From an uncultured Ruminococcus sp. (GTDB lineage: Bacteria > Bacillota > Clostridia > Oscillospirales > Ruminococcaceae), in contig CANRDT010000001.1 of the NCBI GenBank assembly GCA_947629455.1, positions 62,001 to 126,000 on the forward strand: DNA of 64,000 nt. The letters run 5' to 3'. Shown here piece after piece: positions 35,790 through 42,386 of this stretch. The notes under the pieces are model-generated. The model was given only the letters and a program-made list of their open reading frames with translations, searched no databases and was not told the origin of the DNA. A program made the translations under genes and the position numbers. Position 1 is the first letter of the stretch. Each line of letters starts with the position of its first letter.

Positions 35790-37310
35790 ATGGACGAAAA
35801 GGATTTCACTATTTCAGATATAAACGGAAATTCCGATAACGGAGAATCAGGCGTCAAGGATCTTCCTCCCGATCAGGATATTTCTTTCGGCGGAGCGGAC
35901 GGTAATGAAAAACCGGATATTTCGGGATTTTTTGAAAAAGAGGAGCAGGAGCGCACAAAGCAGGATAACGCGCAGGAGGATAGCAAAATATCCGATGAGC
36001 CTGCCCGGCCGCAGGAACAGGAAAACGCGGAAGTTATCCCCGAGCCTGCTATAAATGACAAGCCTGCGGAAAACATCGAAAAAGAGCCTGAAAAAACCGA
36101 TACAGATAAGCGCCGCAAAGAGGACAAGCCCCTGCCGCCGAAACAGACGGCAAAGAAACGTCCCGTACAGGATAAAAAGGTCAAAAAGAAAAAGAAGAAG
36201 AAAAGAAAAAATAAAAAGGGATTTAATAACTCGATTTTCGGCGGACTTATCCTTGTAACTATTATTCTTACCGTTTCGCTTGTCGCGGCGGTGGGAGGTA
36301 TTTCTCTGGGAATGGAGTACCTTGGTATAGGCAAGACCGAAAACGAAGTGACTTTTAATATTCCCAAAAACGCCACGACCGATGAGATCGCCGATATTCT
36401 CATCGACAATAAGATAATCGAAAACAAGTTCCTGTTTAAGGTAGCAATGAGGTTAAAACGTCCGCCTGTCATTTACCCCGGAACGATCACACTTCACCCC
36501 TCTATGGGATATGCCGGAGTTATCGACGAACTGGCAGTACAGAGAGAGACCTACGAAACGGTGACGGTGACTTTCCCGGAGGGTATAACCCTGCTCGAGG
36601 CTGCAAATCTCCTTCAGGAAAACAACGTCTGCACAGCGGAGGATTTCCTCTTTGAGTTTAACAAGCCTCAGGGATATGAATTTGAATCCAAGGTAGAAAC
36701 TAATTCCGATTCGTTCTACAGTATGGAGGGATTTTTCTTCCCCGATACATATAATTTCTATGTGAACGATTCGGCTTACAGCGTTACGGCTACGCTCAGG
36801 CAGCATTTCAATGACAAGATCACCGAGAGTATGTACGCAAAAATGAAAGAAAAACATCTTTCTCTCAGCGAAGTCATAACAATAGCGTCAATTGTCCAGT
36901 GGGAGGCAAATTCGGTCGAAGATATGCCGAAAGTCGCCTCCGTCTTTCTCAATCGTCTTGACGATCCCGATACTTTCCCGTCTTTACAGTCGGACGCTAC
37001 AAAGAACTATGTAGAAAAGGTCATCAAGTCGGTCGGCTCGGACGAGGCTTCGATAGCTCATTATACAGATTGCTACGATACTTATATATGCGAGGGACTT
37101 CCTGCCGGTCCGGTATGCAATCCCGGAATTGACGCGATCAACGCGGTGCTCGATCCCGATAAGACAGAGTACTATTACTTCTGTAACAATCTTGAAACAG
37201 GGAAAAGCTACTTTGCAAAAACTCTTGAAGAACATGAGAAAAATCTCGTCAAAGCCGGTCTGAAAAAAGCCGACGATAAAGACGATAATAAAGACAACGA
37301 TCAGGAGTAA
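35790..37310 (+). CDS. mltG: Endolytic murein transglycosylase MltG
   Basis: A 506-residue YceG-family enzyme that cuts nascent glycan strands. A long, charged cytoplasmic N-tail (about residues 1-145, rich in Glu, Asp, Lys and Pro, ending in an almost pure Lys/Arg run) precedes one membrane helix (GGLILVTIILTVSLVAAVGGI). A LysM-like part follows, then the catalytic domain with IVQWEAN (catalytic Glu) and GLPAGPVCNPGIDAINA. The N-tail is longer than in Escherichia coli. ATG follows AGAGGATG. Confidence 0.95.
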   Translation: MDEKDFTISDINGNSDNGESGVKDLPPDQDISFGGADGNEKPDISGFFEKEEQERTKQDNAQEDSKISDEPARPQEQENAEVIPEPAINDKPAENIEKEPEKTDTDKRRKEDKPLPPKQTAKKRPVQDKKVKKKKKKKRKNKKGFNNSIFGGLILVTIILTVSLVAAVGGISLGMEYLGIGKTENEVTFNIPKNATTDEIADILIDNKIIENKFLFKVAMRLKRPPVIYPGTITLHPSMGYAGVIDELAVQRETYETVTVTFPEGITLLEAANLLQENNVCTAEDFLFEFNKPQGYEFESKVETNSDSFYSMEGFFFPDTYNFYVNDSAYSVTATLRQHFNDKITESMYAKMKEKHLSLSEVITIASIVQWEANSVEDMPKVASVFLNRLDDPDTFPSLQSDATKNYVEKVIKSVGSDEASIAHYTDCYDTYICEGLPAGPVCNPGIDAINAVLDPDKTEYYYFCNNLETGKSYFAKTLEEHEKNLVKAGLKKADDKDDNKDNDQE

Positions 37311-37359
37311 AACATATCCGCAGCCTTTGCCGCGCGCTTGACGACAAAGATAGTAACCT

Positions 37360-37399
37360 ACAGCGTCTGTTATTTCACAAGCGAAGTGACAGACGCTGT
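37360..37399 (+). repeat. Hairpin between mltG and the U32 gene
   Basis: ACAGCGTCTG pairs with CAGACGCTGT, and an inner TCAC pairs with GTGA. It is strong and centred in the 137-nt gap, but no T run follows, so its function as a terminator is doubtful. Confidence 0.6.
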
Positions 37400-37447
37400 T
37401 GTGATGATACGATAAAAAATATAAACTTGCGAAAGGAATACTGCTCG

Positions 37448-38671
37448 ATGTCTGAAAGAAAAACAGAGATACTTTCTCCCGTGGGAGATATGGAAAGACT
37501 GTACGCCGCGCTCGATTTCGGGGCAGACGCCGTTTATCTCGGCTCAACGCGGTTCGGAATGAGGGCGCAGTCGGCTAAATTCGACTATGATTCTCTGAAA
37601 ATTGCCGCAGATGAAGTACATCGGCGCGGAAAAAGGATATACCTTACCTGCAACACGCTGCCGCACAATGACGAGATACAGTATCTTGAAGAATTTATCC
37701 TGCAAGCACAGTCGGCAGGAGTTGACGCTCTTATTGCCAACGATATAGGCGTTTTTTCTCTGATAAAGAAATATGCCCCCGATATGGAGATACACATTTC
37801 CACACAGGCAGGCATAGTAAACTATGTAACGGCAAACGAATTTTACAATATGGGCGCAAAGCGCGTAGTACTGGCAAGGGAGCTTTCTCTGGAGGAAATA
37901 GCGCAGATACGGGCAAAAACCCCGAAAGAGCTTGAAATAGAGGTATTTGTTCACGGCGCTATGTGCGTCAGCTTTTCGGGACGCTGTCTGCTTTCGCAGT
38001 ACCTTGTAGACCGTGACGCCAACCGCGGAGAATGTGCCCAGCCCTGCCGCTGGGGGTACTATCTTATGGAGGAAACGCGCCCCGGGCAGTATTTTCCCAT
38101 ATCCGAGGACGAAAAGGGAAGTTATATACTAAATGCCAAAGACCTGTGTATGATCGACCATATAGACAAGCTTGCCGAGGCAGGAGTGGACAGTTTCAAA
38201 ATAGAAGGCAGAGCAAAATCATCATACTATGTTTCCGTCATAACAAATGCATATCGTATGGCTATGGATATTTACAAGCACGATCCGCAGAATTTTGCAT
38301 TACCGCAGTGGATACGCGACGAGGTTTTCAAGGTCAGTCACAGACCCTACTGCACGGGATTTTTCTTTGGACACCCGAATGACTGCCAGTATTACGAAAG
38401 CAGCGGCTACATACGCAGCTACGATGTTGCCGCGACTGTGGAAAAATGCGAAAACGGCAGGATATACGGCGTTCTGAGGAATAAATTCAACAAGGGCGAC
38501 AAACTCGAGGCGCTCGCACCCGGAAAAAAGCCGCAGGAGCTTACCGCAGATATTATCTATGACGAACTGGACAATGAAATAGATACCGCAAATCACGCCA
38601 TGATGAAGTTTTCGCTCCCGTCGGATATCATACTTCCCAAAAATGCAGTCCTCAGAATAGAAAAACCGTAG
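37448..38671 (+). CDS. Peptidase U32 family protein
   Basis: A 407-residue protein of the U32 family (PrtC/YegQ/RlhA group). The U32 signature region is EIEVFVHGAMCVSFSGRCLLSQYL, followed by ANRGECAQPCRW with Cys residues likely to bind an iron-sulfur cluster. A C-terminal barrel-like end follows. Members named TrhP help hydroxylate tRNA wobble uridine, and others act on 23S rRNA, so protease activity is doubtful. ATG at 37448 follows AAAGGA. It ends 1 nt from the oppositely directed recombinase gene. Confidence 0.88.
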   Translation: MSERKTEILSPVGDMERLYAALDFGADAVYLGSTRFGMRAQSAKFDYDSLKIAADEVHRRGKRIYLTCNTLPHNDEIQYLEEFILQAQSAGVDALIANDIGVFSLIKKYAPDMEIHISTQAGIVNYVTANEFYNMGAKRVVLARELSLEEIAQIRAKTPKELEIEVFVHGAMCVSFSGRCLLSQYLVDRDANRGECAQPCRWGYYLMEETRPGQYFPISEDEKGSYILNAKDLCMIDHIDKLAEAGVDSFKIEGRAKSSYYVSVITNAYRMAMDIYKHDPQNFALPQWIRDEVFKVSHRPYCTGFFFGHPNDCQYYESSGYIRSYDVAATVEKCENGRIYGVLRNKFNKGDKLEALAPGKKPQELTADIIYDELDNEIDTANHAMMKFSLPSDIILPKNAVLRIEKP

Positions 38672-38672
38672 A

Positions 38673-39671
38673 TCATTCTTCCTCGGATTTTTTTATAAGA
38701 TCCGGATCTGAAAGCGGATTCGACTGTGCAGCCTCTTTAAGATTCTCACTTGAAAGATGAGTGTATATTTCGGTAGTGGCTATGCTTTTGTGTCCCAGAA
38801 TATCTTTCAGCACAAGAGTATCCACACCGCCGTGCTGATACATAAGTGTAGCCGCCGTATGCCTCAGCTTGTGAGTGGTTATTCCAAGATTCGACAATCC
38901 GGCTCTGGCAAGATTTTCCTCAACGATCTGCTGTACGCGACGTTTGTTTATACGCGTCTTATTTGCCGAAAGAAAAATAGCGTTTTTATCCTTAGCCGAT
39001 TCACTCGGACGATGGTTGTCTATATAATCGTCAAGAGCCTCGATAGTCGATTCATTCAGATAAACGATACGTTCTTTATTGCCTTTGCCAAGCAGTCTTA
39101 ACGTGTGATTTTCACGGCTGTAATCATTAAGATCGAGTCCGACAAGCTCACTCAGACGCATACCGCAGTTGAGAAACAGCAGAATTATACAATAATCGCG
39201 TTCCTTATATTTTGAGTCAATGCTTTGCAGAAGTTTAAGGCTGTCTTGCAGCGAAAGGAATTTAGGCAGTTTATTCTTTACATGCGGCAGCTCCAGATCG
39301 GCTATCGGATTTGAATCTATAAGCTTAGCTTTCTGATAAAGAAATATGTAGAATTGTTTTAGCGCGGAAGTTTTCCTTGCCCGCGTCGCCGTTTCATTTT
39401 TGCGTGTATCTTTAAGATAGCGAAGATAGACATATGCGTCATTGAGAGTGAACGACTCGACATATTCTATCGGAACGTCAGCGATCGTGATCTCATTCCA
39501 TTCGGTATCAGCCGGCACATCGCGGTGTTTGATCTTCAGGTATCTCAGAAACGTTCTTAGGTCGATGTAGTATGCCTCTTCGGTACGGTCTGCGCGGTCG
39601 CGGACTATTTTTATATTAGTCAGAAAATCCGTCAGATAATAGGGGCAATCGTCAATGTATTTTTGTTTCAT
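38673..39671 (-). CDS. Tyrosine recombinase, Xer family
   Basis: A 332-residue tyrosine recombinase with an N-terminal SAM-like DNA-binding domain and a complete catalytic set: Arg172 (GMRLSEL), Lys196 or 198 (GKGNKER), His267 and Arg270 (THKLRHTA), His294 (LGHKSIATT) and Tyr303 (IYTHLS). It stands alone among housekeeping genes, with no phage genes. Its promoter is nearly consensus, and the mRNA leader holds a 13-bp inverted repeat. The length and lone setting recall single-recombinase systems such as XerS, whose recombination site lies next to its gene. A dimer-resolution role is inferred; an invertase or transcription-linked role is possible. Confidence 0.9.
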   Translation of the reverse strand: MKQKYIDDCPYYLTDFLTNIKIVRDRADRTEEAYYIDLRTFLRYLKIKHRDVPADTEWNEITIADVPIEYVESFTLNDAYVYLRYLKDTRKNETATRARKTSALKQFYIFLYQKAKLIDSNPIADLELPHVKNKLPKFLSLQDSLKLLQSIDSKYKERDYCIILLFLNCGMRLSELVGLDLNDYSRENHTLRLLGKGNKERIVYLNESTIEALDDYIDNHRPSESAKDKNAIFLSANKTRINKRRVQQIVEENLARAGLSNLGITTHKLRHTAATLMYQHGGVDTLVLKDILGHKSIATTEIYTHLSSENLKEAAQSNPLSDPDLIKKSEEE

Positions 39672-39714
39672 AATATTCCGCCTTTCTTGCTTTCTTGCTT
39701 ATTTCACTTCCCTG

Positions 39715-39744
39715 AGTTTCACTAAATTTTTATTTAGTGAAACT
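39715..39744. repeat. Perfect 13-bp inverted repeat in the xer leader; candidate recombination site
   Basis: AGTTTCACTAAAT (39715-39727), TTTT, ATTTAGTGAAACT (39732-39744). Read as 11-8-11, each arm (AGTTTCACTAA) agrees with the XerD-side arm of the Bacillus dif site, as I recall it, at 8 of 11 positions. It lies about 10 nt downstream of the predicted transcription start and 44 bp upstream of the start codon. No T run follows on the minus strand, so it is not a terminator for yunB. Alternatives are an operator or an mRNA 5' stabilising hairpin. Confidence 0.6.
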
Positions 39745-39757
39745 TCCTGTCAATTTC

Positions 39758-39786
39758 AGTATATCACTTCTCTGGCGGGTTGTCAA
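39758..39786 (-). promoter_or_regulatory. Near-consensus sigma-A promoter of the xer gene
   Basis: Minus strand: TTGACA (39786-39781), 17-bp spacer, TATACT (39763-39758). A second TTGACA lies downstream at 39753-39748, next to the inverted repeat, but lacks a good -10. Confidence 0.88.
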
Positions 39787-39822
39787 GTATCCAAAGCAAC
39801 TTTTCTATATAAATATAAAAAA

Positions 39823-40461
39823 CTATGTAATATTCTCCCCCACCTTCTGAAGATACATATCAGGTATCTTGCCGACTATGATCGTTTCCGCTATCATCAG
39901 TTCGTCACTGACAACTATTTTTTCGGTATCGGTCGGCATAATGACCGAGATCTCCACCGTGACTATAATGCTCAGCTTATGTATCGTCTGATTTATCCCT
40001 GCCGACATAAACTGACTGTTTATTTCCGTATCGACCGAACCGACCTGATAAACGCCGAGTTCTATGTCAGCGCCCCTACCGCTTAACAGCGTGATACCCG
40101 ATAAAGTTCCGAGCGGCACGGAAAATTCTGTGTTTTCTATATCGGATAAAGATCTGTTTACCTCCTCTTTCACTCTGTTCTGCAAAATATTTACAACTGC
40201 TGTATTCGTTTCTGCCGAACATATATTTCCGTTTGCGTCACGATAGATATTCACATAATCATTCCGATCGGTATCAATTTCCTTTTTTACTGCGGCTGTA
40301 ATTATTTCAGTCGCTGTCTCTCTGCCTTTGTATTGACAGATCTCGGAAATATGCTGCGATAACTGCTGCTGGATTATAATAAGCAATACCGCAAGGATAA
40401 TTACTATTATCAACAGGATATATGAAAATTTGCAGGCTTTTGACGCTCTGTACTTGCTCAT
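39823..40461 (-). CDS. yunB: Sporulation protein YunB
   Basis: A 212-residue protein with one N-terminal membrane helix (FSYILLIIVIILAVLLIII) and a YunB extracytoplasmic domain (SVPLGTLSGITLLSGRGADIELGVYQVGSVDTEINSQF). In Bacillus, yunB is mother-cell expressed and needed for full sporulation. ATG at 40461 has GGGGTGAT upstream; the track's start is 11 codons earlier without support. Confidence 0.9.
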   Translation of the reverse strand: MSKYRASKACKFSYILLIIVIILAVLLIIIQQQLSQHISEICQYKGRETATEIITAAVKKEIDTDRNDYVNIYRDANGNICSAETNTAVVNILQNRVKEEVNRSLSDIENTEFSVPLGTLSGITLLSGRGADIELGVYQVGSVDTEINSQFMSAGINQTIHKLSIIVTVEISVIMPTDTEKIVVSDELMIAETIIVGKIPDMYLQKVGENIT

Positions 40462-40521
40462 ATCTATCACCCCTTTTGATTTTATAATACTCAAAAAGGG
40501 CTTATTTTGTTAATATAATAT

Positions 40522-40560
40522 AAAAAAGGCATAGCAAATTTAAACTCGCTATGCCTTTAA
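40522..40560 (-). terminator. Intrinsic terminator of the transketolase operon
   Basis: Minus strand stem AAAGGCATAGC/GCTATGCCTTT, 12-nt loop, then TTTTTT. It lies about 35 nt after the tktB stop. Confidence 0.9.
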
Positions 40561-40595
40561 ATTGTATTATTGTATTATTTTATTATTCTGCTTTA

Positions 40596-41543
40596 TTACT
40601 TAGCTGCAACGGCGGCTTTAACAGTGCCGATAATATTTTCGGCAGACAAACCAAATTCCTTTAGGAGCTGGACTGCCGGACCGGAATGACCGAATACGTC
40701 GTTTACACCGATCCTTATGACCTTTGTAGGCTGTTTTTCACAAAGGACTTCACTTACCGCCGAACCAAGTCCGCCGATAATGCTATGCTCTTCGACCGTT
40801 ACCACAAGTCCGGTCTTTGCGGCGCTCTTTACGATAAGCTCGGAATCTATCGGCTTGATAGTGTGAATATTGATAACGTCAGCCTCAATTCCCTGCTCTG
40901 CCAACGCTTTTCCCGCCTCGATAGCCTCAGCGACCATAAGCCCTGTCGCTATGATAGTAACGTCCTTTCCGCTGCGCAGCTGAATACCCTTGCCAAGCTC
41001 AAACTTGTATGTCGACTTGTCATTGAAAACAGGCACTGCAAGACGTCCGAATCTCATATAAACAGGTCCGTTATGCAAAATTGCAGCCTCGACCGCGGCT
41101 TTGGTCTCAACATCGTCGGCAGGATTGATAATAGTCATACCGGGAATGGTGCGCATAAGAGCAATATCTTCGTTGCACTGATGAGTTGCGCCGTCCTCGC
41201 CTACTGAAATACCTGCATGAGTCGCACCGATCTTGACATTAAGATGAGGATAACCTATCGAATTTCTCACGATCTCAAAAGCGCGTCCCGATGCGAACAT
41301 AGCGAAAGTTGAGGCAAAAGGTATCTTGCCCGTCGTCGCCATACCTGCGGCAACGCCCATCATATTAGCTTCTGCAATACCGCAGTCAAAAAATCTGTCG
41401 GGAAATTTTTTCTTAAAGATACCGGTCTTTGTAGCCGCGGCAAGGTCGGCGTCCAGAACATAAAGATTTTCATATTTATCGCCCAATTCGGCAAGAGCCT
41501 CGCCGTAGCTCTCTCTTGTAGCCTTTTTTATTACGTCTGCCAT
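40596..41543 (-). CDS. Transketolase, C-terminal subunit
   Basis: A 315-residue half of a split transketolase carrying the pyrimidine-binding and C-terminal domains (FDCGIAEANMMGVAAGMA, GATHQCNEDIALMRTIPG, VVTVEEHSIIGGLGSAV). It acts with the N-terminal subunit encoded 3 nt upstream to move two-carbon units in the non-oxidative pentose phosphate pathway. ATG follows GGAGGG at the end of the partner gene. Confidence 0.93.
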   Translation of the reverse strand: MADVIKKATRESYGEALAELGDKYENLYVLDADLAAATKTGIFKKKFPDRFFDCGIAEANMMGVAAGMATTGKIPFASTFAMFASGRAFEIVRNSIGYPHLNVKIGATHAGISVGEDGATHQCNEDIALMRTIPGMTIINPADDVETKAAVEAAILHNGPVYMRFGRLAVPVFNDKSTYKFELGKGIQLRSGKDVTIIATGLMVAEAIEAGKALAEQGIEADVINIHTIKPIDSELIVKSAAKTGLVVTVEEHSIIGGLGSAVSEVLCEKQPTKVIRIGVNDVFGHSGPAVQLLKEFGLSAENIIGTVKAAVAAK

Positions 41544-41546
41544 TGA

Positions 41547-42386
41547 TCAGCCCTCCAGTTCCTTTAATCTTGCGTTAAGTTCGGCAACAGCCTGTTCGTA
41601 CTGCTCTGCATTAGGAGCTGCGCCGTGCCACGATACGTTGTCCTCCATAAAAGAAACGCCTTTGCCCTTGATACTCTTCTGGATTATCACAACAGGCTGA
41701 CTGGAAATGCACTCCGCCTCATTGAAAGCTTTTTCAAGGTTATCAAAATCATGCGCCTCGATCTCGATAGCGTGCCAGCCGAACGCCTCAAATTTTTCCT
41801 TTATCGGATAAGGCGACATAACGTCCTTGACTCTGCCGTCAATCTGCAAACCGTTATTGTCAACGATCGCTACCAAATTATCAAGCTGATAATGAGCCGC
41901 AAACATTGCAGCCTCCCATACCTGACCTTCCTGTATCTCGCCGTCGCCGAGTATCGTATAGACTTTATAGGTATCGGACGAGATCTTAGCAGACAAAGCC
42001 ATTCCGCAGGCGGCGGATATTCCCTGTCCGAGCGAGCCTGAGGACATATCTACACCGGGGATACTTATACAGGGGTGTCCCTGAAGCAGAGCGCCGATAT
42101 GCCTGAGATTTTTAAGCTCGGACTTATCGAAAAAGCCTTTTTCCGCAAGCACCGAATAGAGCGCGGGAGCGGTGTGTCCCTTTGACAGCACCAATCTGTC
42201 TCTCTGAGGTTCGTCGGGAGAATTCGGATAAACATTCATTCTGCAAAAATAAAGATAAGTCAGCAGATCGGCTATAGAAAGCGAACCGCCCGGGTGACCG
42301 GATTTAGCGTTGAAAACGCCCTCAAGGATACCCAGACGTACCTTGCAGGCTGTGATCTCAAGCTGTTTCTTGATTGTTGCGTCCAT
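41547..42386 (-). CDS. Transketolase, N-terminal subunit
   Basis: A 279-residue ThDP-binding half of the split transketolase: SGHPGGSLSIADLLTYLYF, SSGSLGQGISAACGMA, and the GDGEIQEGQVWEAAMFA ThDP motif. It is made with the C-terminal half, as in many Clostridia. ATG follows TTGGAGG. Confidence 0.94.
   Translation of the reverse strand: MDATIKKQLEITACKVRLGILEGVFNAKSGHPGGSLSIADLLTYLYFCRMNVYPNSPDEPQRDRLVLSKGHTAPALYSVLAEKGFFDKSELKNLRHIGALLQGHPCISIPGVDMSSGSLGQGISAACGMALSAKISSDTYKVYTILGDGEIQEGQVWEAAMFAAHYQLDNLVAIVDNNGLQIDGRVKDVMSPYPIKEKFEAFGWHAIEIEAHDFDNLEKAFNEAECISSQPVVIIQKSIKGKGVSFMEDNVSWHGAAPNAEQYEQAVAELNARLKELEG

Follow-up and report, generated by a model that had tools for sequence, protein, structure and literature searches.

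A symmetrical dif-like site beside a lone Xer recombinase gene at the replication terminus of Clostridia

A tyrosine recombinase gene with an inverted repeat in its leader raises the question of whether the repeat controls the gene or is the site on which the recombinase acts. The window, a 64,000-nucleotide stretch of DNA from an uncultured Ruminococcus sp., contains such a pair. A preliminary description suggested a distinct single-recombinase dif system, and this suggestion gains support from the symmetry, single copy and terminus position of the site and from the separate clade of the protein, while the homotetramer is inferred and not shown. We give a probability of roughly 0.85 that the 28-bp core of the repeat is the chromosomal dif site and is resolved by a homotetramer of the Xer protein from the adjacent gene, with the recombination, binding and FtsK control being inferred.

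The product of the 332-aa ORF matches Pfam Phage_integrase at 131.6 bits. Its six catalytic residues, R172, K196, H267, R270, H294 and Y303, are all present as first claimed and invariant in the 22 orthologues compared. The NCBIfam cut-offs for XerC, XerD, XerS and XerA are reached by neither this protein nor its nine relatives among the ten scanned. It scores 207.5 against 335 bits and 199 against 330 bits with TIGR02224 and TIGR02225 (XerC and XerD), 133 against 267 bits with the XerS model (relatives, 138–159) and 191 against 220 bits with the XerA model (relatives, at most 209.6).

In a maximum-likelihood tree, the recombinase forms a separate clade (98/89) outside the XerC+XerD clade (97/90), inside which the XerD proteins of Clostridia and E. 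coli cluster together. The branches are long, so the tree, which includes no XerS, XerH or XerA sequences, is to be read with caution. We use the working name Xer335 for this Clostridia clade after the protein length. An AlphaFold model of the recombinase has a mean pLDDT of 85, and its fold matches in the PDB are XerA as the best, then an integron integrase and XerH. A PDB chain labelled RaiA, 9i5v_14, scores 85 bits against the recombinase; it may be misnamed or a fusion.

The leader contains a perfect 30-bp inverted repeat, AGTTTCACTAAAT-TTTT-ATTTAGTGAAACT, at 39715–39744. It lies 43 bp before the ATG and is preceded by a promoter-like site agreeing with the consensus at 11 of 12 positions, so the placement between promoter and start codon was described correctly. 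No such repeat is expected by chance in the window (expectation, 0), and it is single in the 2.04-Mb genome even when up to three mismatches are allowed. The features of the locus are collected in Table 1.

Table 1. Features of the recombinase locus in window coordinates
Feature	Position	Strand	Basis
Lone Xer-type tyrosine recombinase gene, 332 aa	38673..39671	-	domain matches, tree, invariant catalytic residues
dif-like symmetrical 28-bp site, 11-6-11, GTTTCACTAAA TTTTTA TTTAGTGAAAC	39716..39743	.	single copy; conserved, arms covary
Left 11-bp arm, recombinase-binding role inferred	39716..39726	+	register from 49 sites
Central 6 bp, TTTTTA	39727..39732	+	register from 49 sites
Right 11-bp arm, binding inferred, reverse complement of left arm	39733..39743	-	register from 49 sites
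Promoter-like site of recombinase gene, TTGACA-17-TATACT, extended -10	39758..39786	-	consensus match only
Replication-terminus signature	36000..42000	.	GC skew + to -, gene strand switch

Conservation upstream of orthologues had been set as a test, and the site meets it with its symmetry kept through compensating arm changes. We compared 50 loci of the same family, which were selected either solely on a protein match or for not matching the first pattern, with the palindrome disregarded. An 11-6-11 palindrome lies near the gene in 39 of them, and 5 of the remaining 11 have the site elsewhere in the genome. With 10 sites from the wider class added to the 39, the arms covary strongly: 526 of 539 arm positions are complementary in the 49 sites, against a mean of 384 and a maximum of 414 after shuffling. 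The arm variants are ATTTCGCTAAA, GTTTCACTAAA, ACCGCACTAAA, ATTGCACCAAA, ATTTCGCAAAA, ACCGCGTGAAA and TCCGCACGAAA in the family and ATTATACAAAA, ATTCAACGAAA, ATTTCGGGAAA and TAGTCACAAAA beyond it.

The inner AA of the arms is invariant across the 49 sites. The 6-bp centre begins with T and ends with A in 42 of them, and its inner four bases are variable and asymmetric. This shared centre rules out the 11-8-11 register in which the repeat had been read. The claimed resemblance to the XerD arm at 8 of 11 positions holds only in that register, by eye and against the B. subtilis arm; in the conserved register, the mirrored arms of the window site have just 6–7 of 11 positions identical to known XerD arms. 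One relative's site (L012:1434–1461), TGTGCGCATAA TAAAAA TTATGTGAACA, has arms close to those of classical dif, sharing 9 of 11 positions with the right arm from B. subtilis, and, judged from its sequence, is possibly an intermediate.

Several copies of the repeat would have spoken against a dif site. Besides being single in the window's genome, the site occurs once in 39 of the 44 family genomes having the main pattern. Extra copies are seen in G013, G018, G029 and G079. The genes scanned between the two G029 sites look like ordinary chromosomal genes, so use of the site by a mobile element is not shown there. Contigs end within about 150 bp of the site in four assemblies (G002, end of C11; G060, start of C6; G079, start of C24; G093, start of C3), which hints at repeated DNA or at elements inserted at dif in those strains.

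The association extends beyond the family. Among 20 clade genes outside it, 8 have a diverged but symmetrical palindrome directly beside the gene and 3 more have one within a few kb. Among the matches listed for species genomes, the site is beside the gene in Faecalibacterium, Gemmiger, Ruminococcus, several Clostridium and Inconstantimicrobium. The 11-6-11 palindrome was not found within 10 kb of the recombinase gene in G120, G209, G147, G188, G254, G292 and G196, although the gene is opposite dnaA in G120, G209 and G188. No Xer gene is close to the matches in C. beijerinckii HUN142 (L098), Halobacillus, Pedobacter and others, which are likely chance or other repeats.

The site marks the replication terminus. 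In the window, the genes lie on the + strand up to 38671 and on the - strand from 38673, and the GC skew is +0.059 over the 10 kb preceding the site and -0.108 over the 10 kb following it. Of 20 further sites, 19 show a drop in skew across the site (sign test, 2e-5), and at 14 the skew turns strictly from + to -, as it does at 6 of 25 control midpoints. The angle between dnaA and the site (or the gene, if no site is seen) is 151–196 degrees in the 11 chromosomes that have both on one contig. These positions are not fully independent because the gene order is partly inherited.

Displaced sites separate the site from the leader. G062 has xer on one contig and the site on another, with the skew switch coinciding with the site, and the G175 site is located downstream of its gene. 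Thus, the terminus retains the site and not the leader. In G035, no terminus switch is seen in the skew about the displaced site. The G062 recombinase is present as two tandem paralogues (C56:6801–9608; L220).

A canonical dif with xerC and xerD elsewhere would have refuted a single-recombinase system, and neither was found. The window's assembly is a 2.04-Mb draft of 54 contigs and 86% complete. No second Xer partner, XerC or XerD, was found in it, its remaining Xer-like proteins being weak and partial matches of 24–39% identity. At this completeness the XerD absence could be chance, but XerD was not found either in the same-genus genome G071, which is 96% complete. A B. subtilis-type dif pattern with up to three mismatches does not occur in G000, and across 20 genomes (G000 and 19 others) it is no more frequent than a reversed control; the canonical dif reading was dropped since it matches only at the control level.

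The recombinase clade is present in 129 of 195 Clostridia genomes (E <= 1e-60), nearly always once. XerD exceeds its cut-off in 61 of the 195 and XerC in none, but the XerC cut-off is strict and is passed by only 2 of 14 control genomes; the top XerC-model scores in Clostridia belong to the XerD proteins. About 50 (~52) of the 129 have no XerD-level match, as counted from two tables. In the window's family, an XerD orthologue is found in five genomes, near the site or xer in four of them, and is absent from most, so XerD appears mostly lost there. All 11 genomes examined for FtsK, including the window's, encode it with its gamma domain.

Could the palindrome instead be just an operator for xer transcription, bound by the recombinase or another dimeric repressor? 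The window site does lie directly downstream of a good promoter match and close to the ATG, and in most orthologues the site is 40–540 bp upstream of xer. However, two ORFs separate the site from the gene in G071, the G175 site follows the gene, and the site 11 kb from xer in G011 retains its sequence, as does that on another contig in G062. Nor does an operator explain the single-copy placement at the terminus. We reject it as the only function, given that sites moved away from xer retain their sequence and that the one in G062 is still at the terminus, and regard it as very unlikely. An RNA hairpin is rejected as well, some sites being far away from any leader.

The XerC role could also have been taken over by this protein in a two-recombinase system, paired on a symmetrical dif with an XerD that was missed in the incomplete assembly. 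XerD and this recombinase coexist in many Clostridia, and XerD is encoded near the recombinase in five genomes. But the site is just as symmetrical in the absence of XerD as in its presence. No XerD-level match is found in the roughly 50 genomes counted above, and G071 and most of the family lack XerD. Moreover, the two arms of a heterotetramer site are expected to differ, as they do in E. coli and B. subtilis. We thus judge such pairing to be unlikely, while XerD could take part where it is kept, in the five family genomes and many other Clostridia. The neighboring XerD orthologues, within a few kb of the recombinase or site, are in G033, G060, G085, G099 (L374, L350, L377, L375) and G276 (L308).

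Tyrosine recombinases of mobile elements often adjoin their attachment site, and the same palindrome is on some phage contigs, so the repeat might be the attachment site of such an element, with the Xer-like protein as its integrase. Yet one gene and mostly one site are found per genome, their terminus position is constant across the class, and no element genes surround the site in the window. This origin is hardly credible.

The preferred reading is the dif site with a single recombinase. Both arms are alike, so one recombinase is able to bind both halves. The adjacent gene would encode the only Xer recombinase of the bacterium, and two subunits would occupy each of two sister dif sites to form the homotetramer. 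Recombination of the sister sites at the terminus would then split a dimeric chromosome into two monomers. One Xer and a symmetrical site recur together at the terminus across Clostridia; hence, fused chromosomes are probably separated there by one enzyme and not by XerC/XerD.

In Cre/loxP, an asymmetric centre gives the site its polarity. The 6-bp centre here, T-nnnn-A, is the sole asymmetric element and may likewise set the site polarity and the order of strand exchange. FtsK retains the gamma domain that contacts XerD and is the probable agent of site pairing and activation. This FtsK control is an inference, as are binding, cleavage and action as a homotetramer. The leader position may add autoregulation of xer, which was also suggested before and cannot be excluded, yet it gives no explanation for the sites away from xer.

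As to Clostridia in general, we lean only slightly toward a rule. An unnamed Xer lineage would act alone on a symmetrical dif with co-evolving arms, XerC being gone and XerD being repurposed or repeatedly lost. Where it is kept, XerD may have another job, for example in SMC unloading at the terminus.

The single-recombinase systems in reviews are XerS, XerH and XerA (PMC5357621). XerS/difSL of Streptococcus and Lactococcus is similar in having one recombinase, a gene adjoining the site at the terminus, a Firmicutes host and FtsK involvement (PMC5357621, PMC2958812). However, the arms of the 31-bp difSL are imperfect and unequal and flank an 11-bp centre (PMC5357621), whereas the Clostridia site has 28 bp with a 6-bp centre and near-perfect symmetry, and the Clostridia protein falls far below the XerS cut-off. 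XerH/difH of Campylobacter and Helicobacter also uses a single recombinase and XerH structures are among the best fold matches, but it is epsilon-proteobacterial and the XerH similarity is low (70 bits).

Archaeal XerA/dif shares the single recombinase and a 28-bp 11-6-11 site, near the gene in Sulfolobales (PMC2958812, PMC5357621). XerA is the best fold match, but none of the ten members passes its model, and dif in archaea does not as a rule lie opposite the origin (PMC5357621), unlike the Clostridia site. The dif of XerC/XerD (CodV/RipX) is likewise a 28-bp 11-6-11 site at the terminus served by the FtsK gamma domain, but has two recombinases and two unlike arms; the Clostridia protein is outside their clade and canonical dif is at background. 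No account of a Clostridia single-recombinase system was found in the open literature, subscription papers being outside the search.

XerS, XerH and XerA are exceptions in few groups, while the Clostridia system would span Ruminococcus, Faecalibacterium, Gemmiger, Anaerotruncus and parts of Clostridium, which are among the most abundant gut bacteria. Firmicutes were scanned with a B. subtilis profile in the broad 2011 prediction of dif sites, which did not succeed for C. perfringens and C. beijerinckii, an outcome attributed to AT-richness (PMC3025954). A symmetrical dif is an alternative possible reason, those species being outside this analysis. If the class-wide rule is true, published Clostridia dif predictions made from the B. 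subtilis site need revision.

The symmetrical site can be a simple terminus marker for metagenome-assembled Clostridia. With a homotetrameric Xer acting on a natural dif of almost perfect symmetry, it would also become testable how the strand-exchange order is imposed by FtsK when subunits and arms are identical.

The viral occurrences of the palindrome take the form TTTCGCTAAA-N6-TTTAGCGAAA on 15 viral contigs (including L265, L267 and L271–L275), 13 of which have no Xer gene in the stretch examined. They may be phages borrowing the host recombinase. The sites of L267 and L273 are identical, as are those of L272 and L275 with one being the reverse complement of the other. In L265 and L272, the site is within about 1 kb of the terminase large subunit gene.
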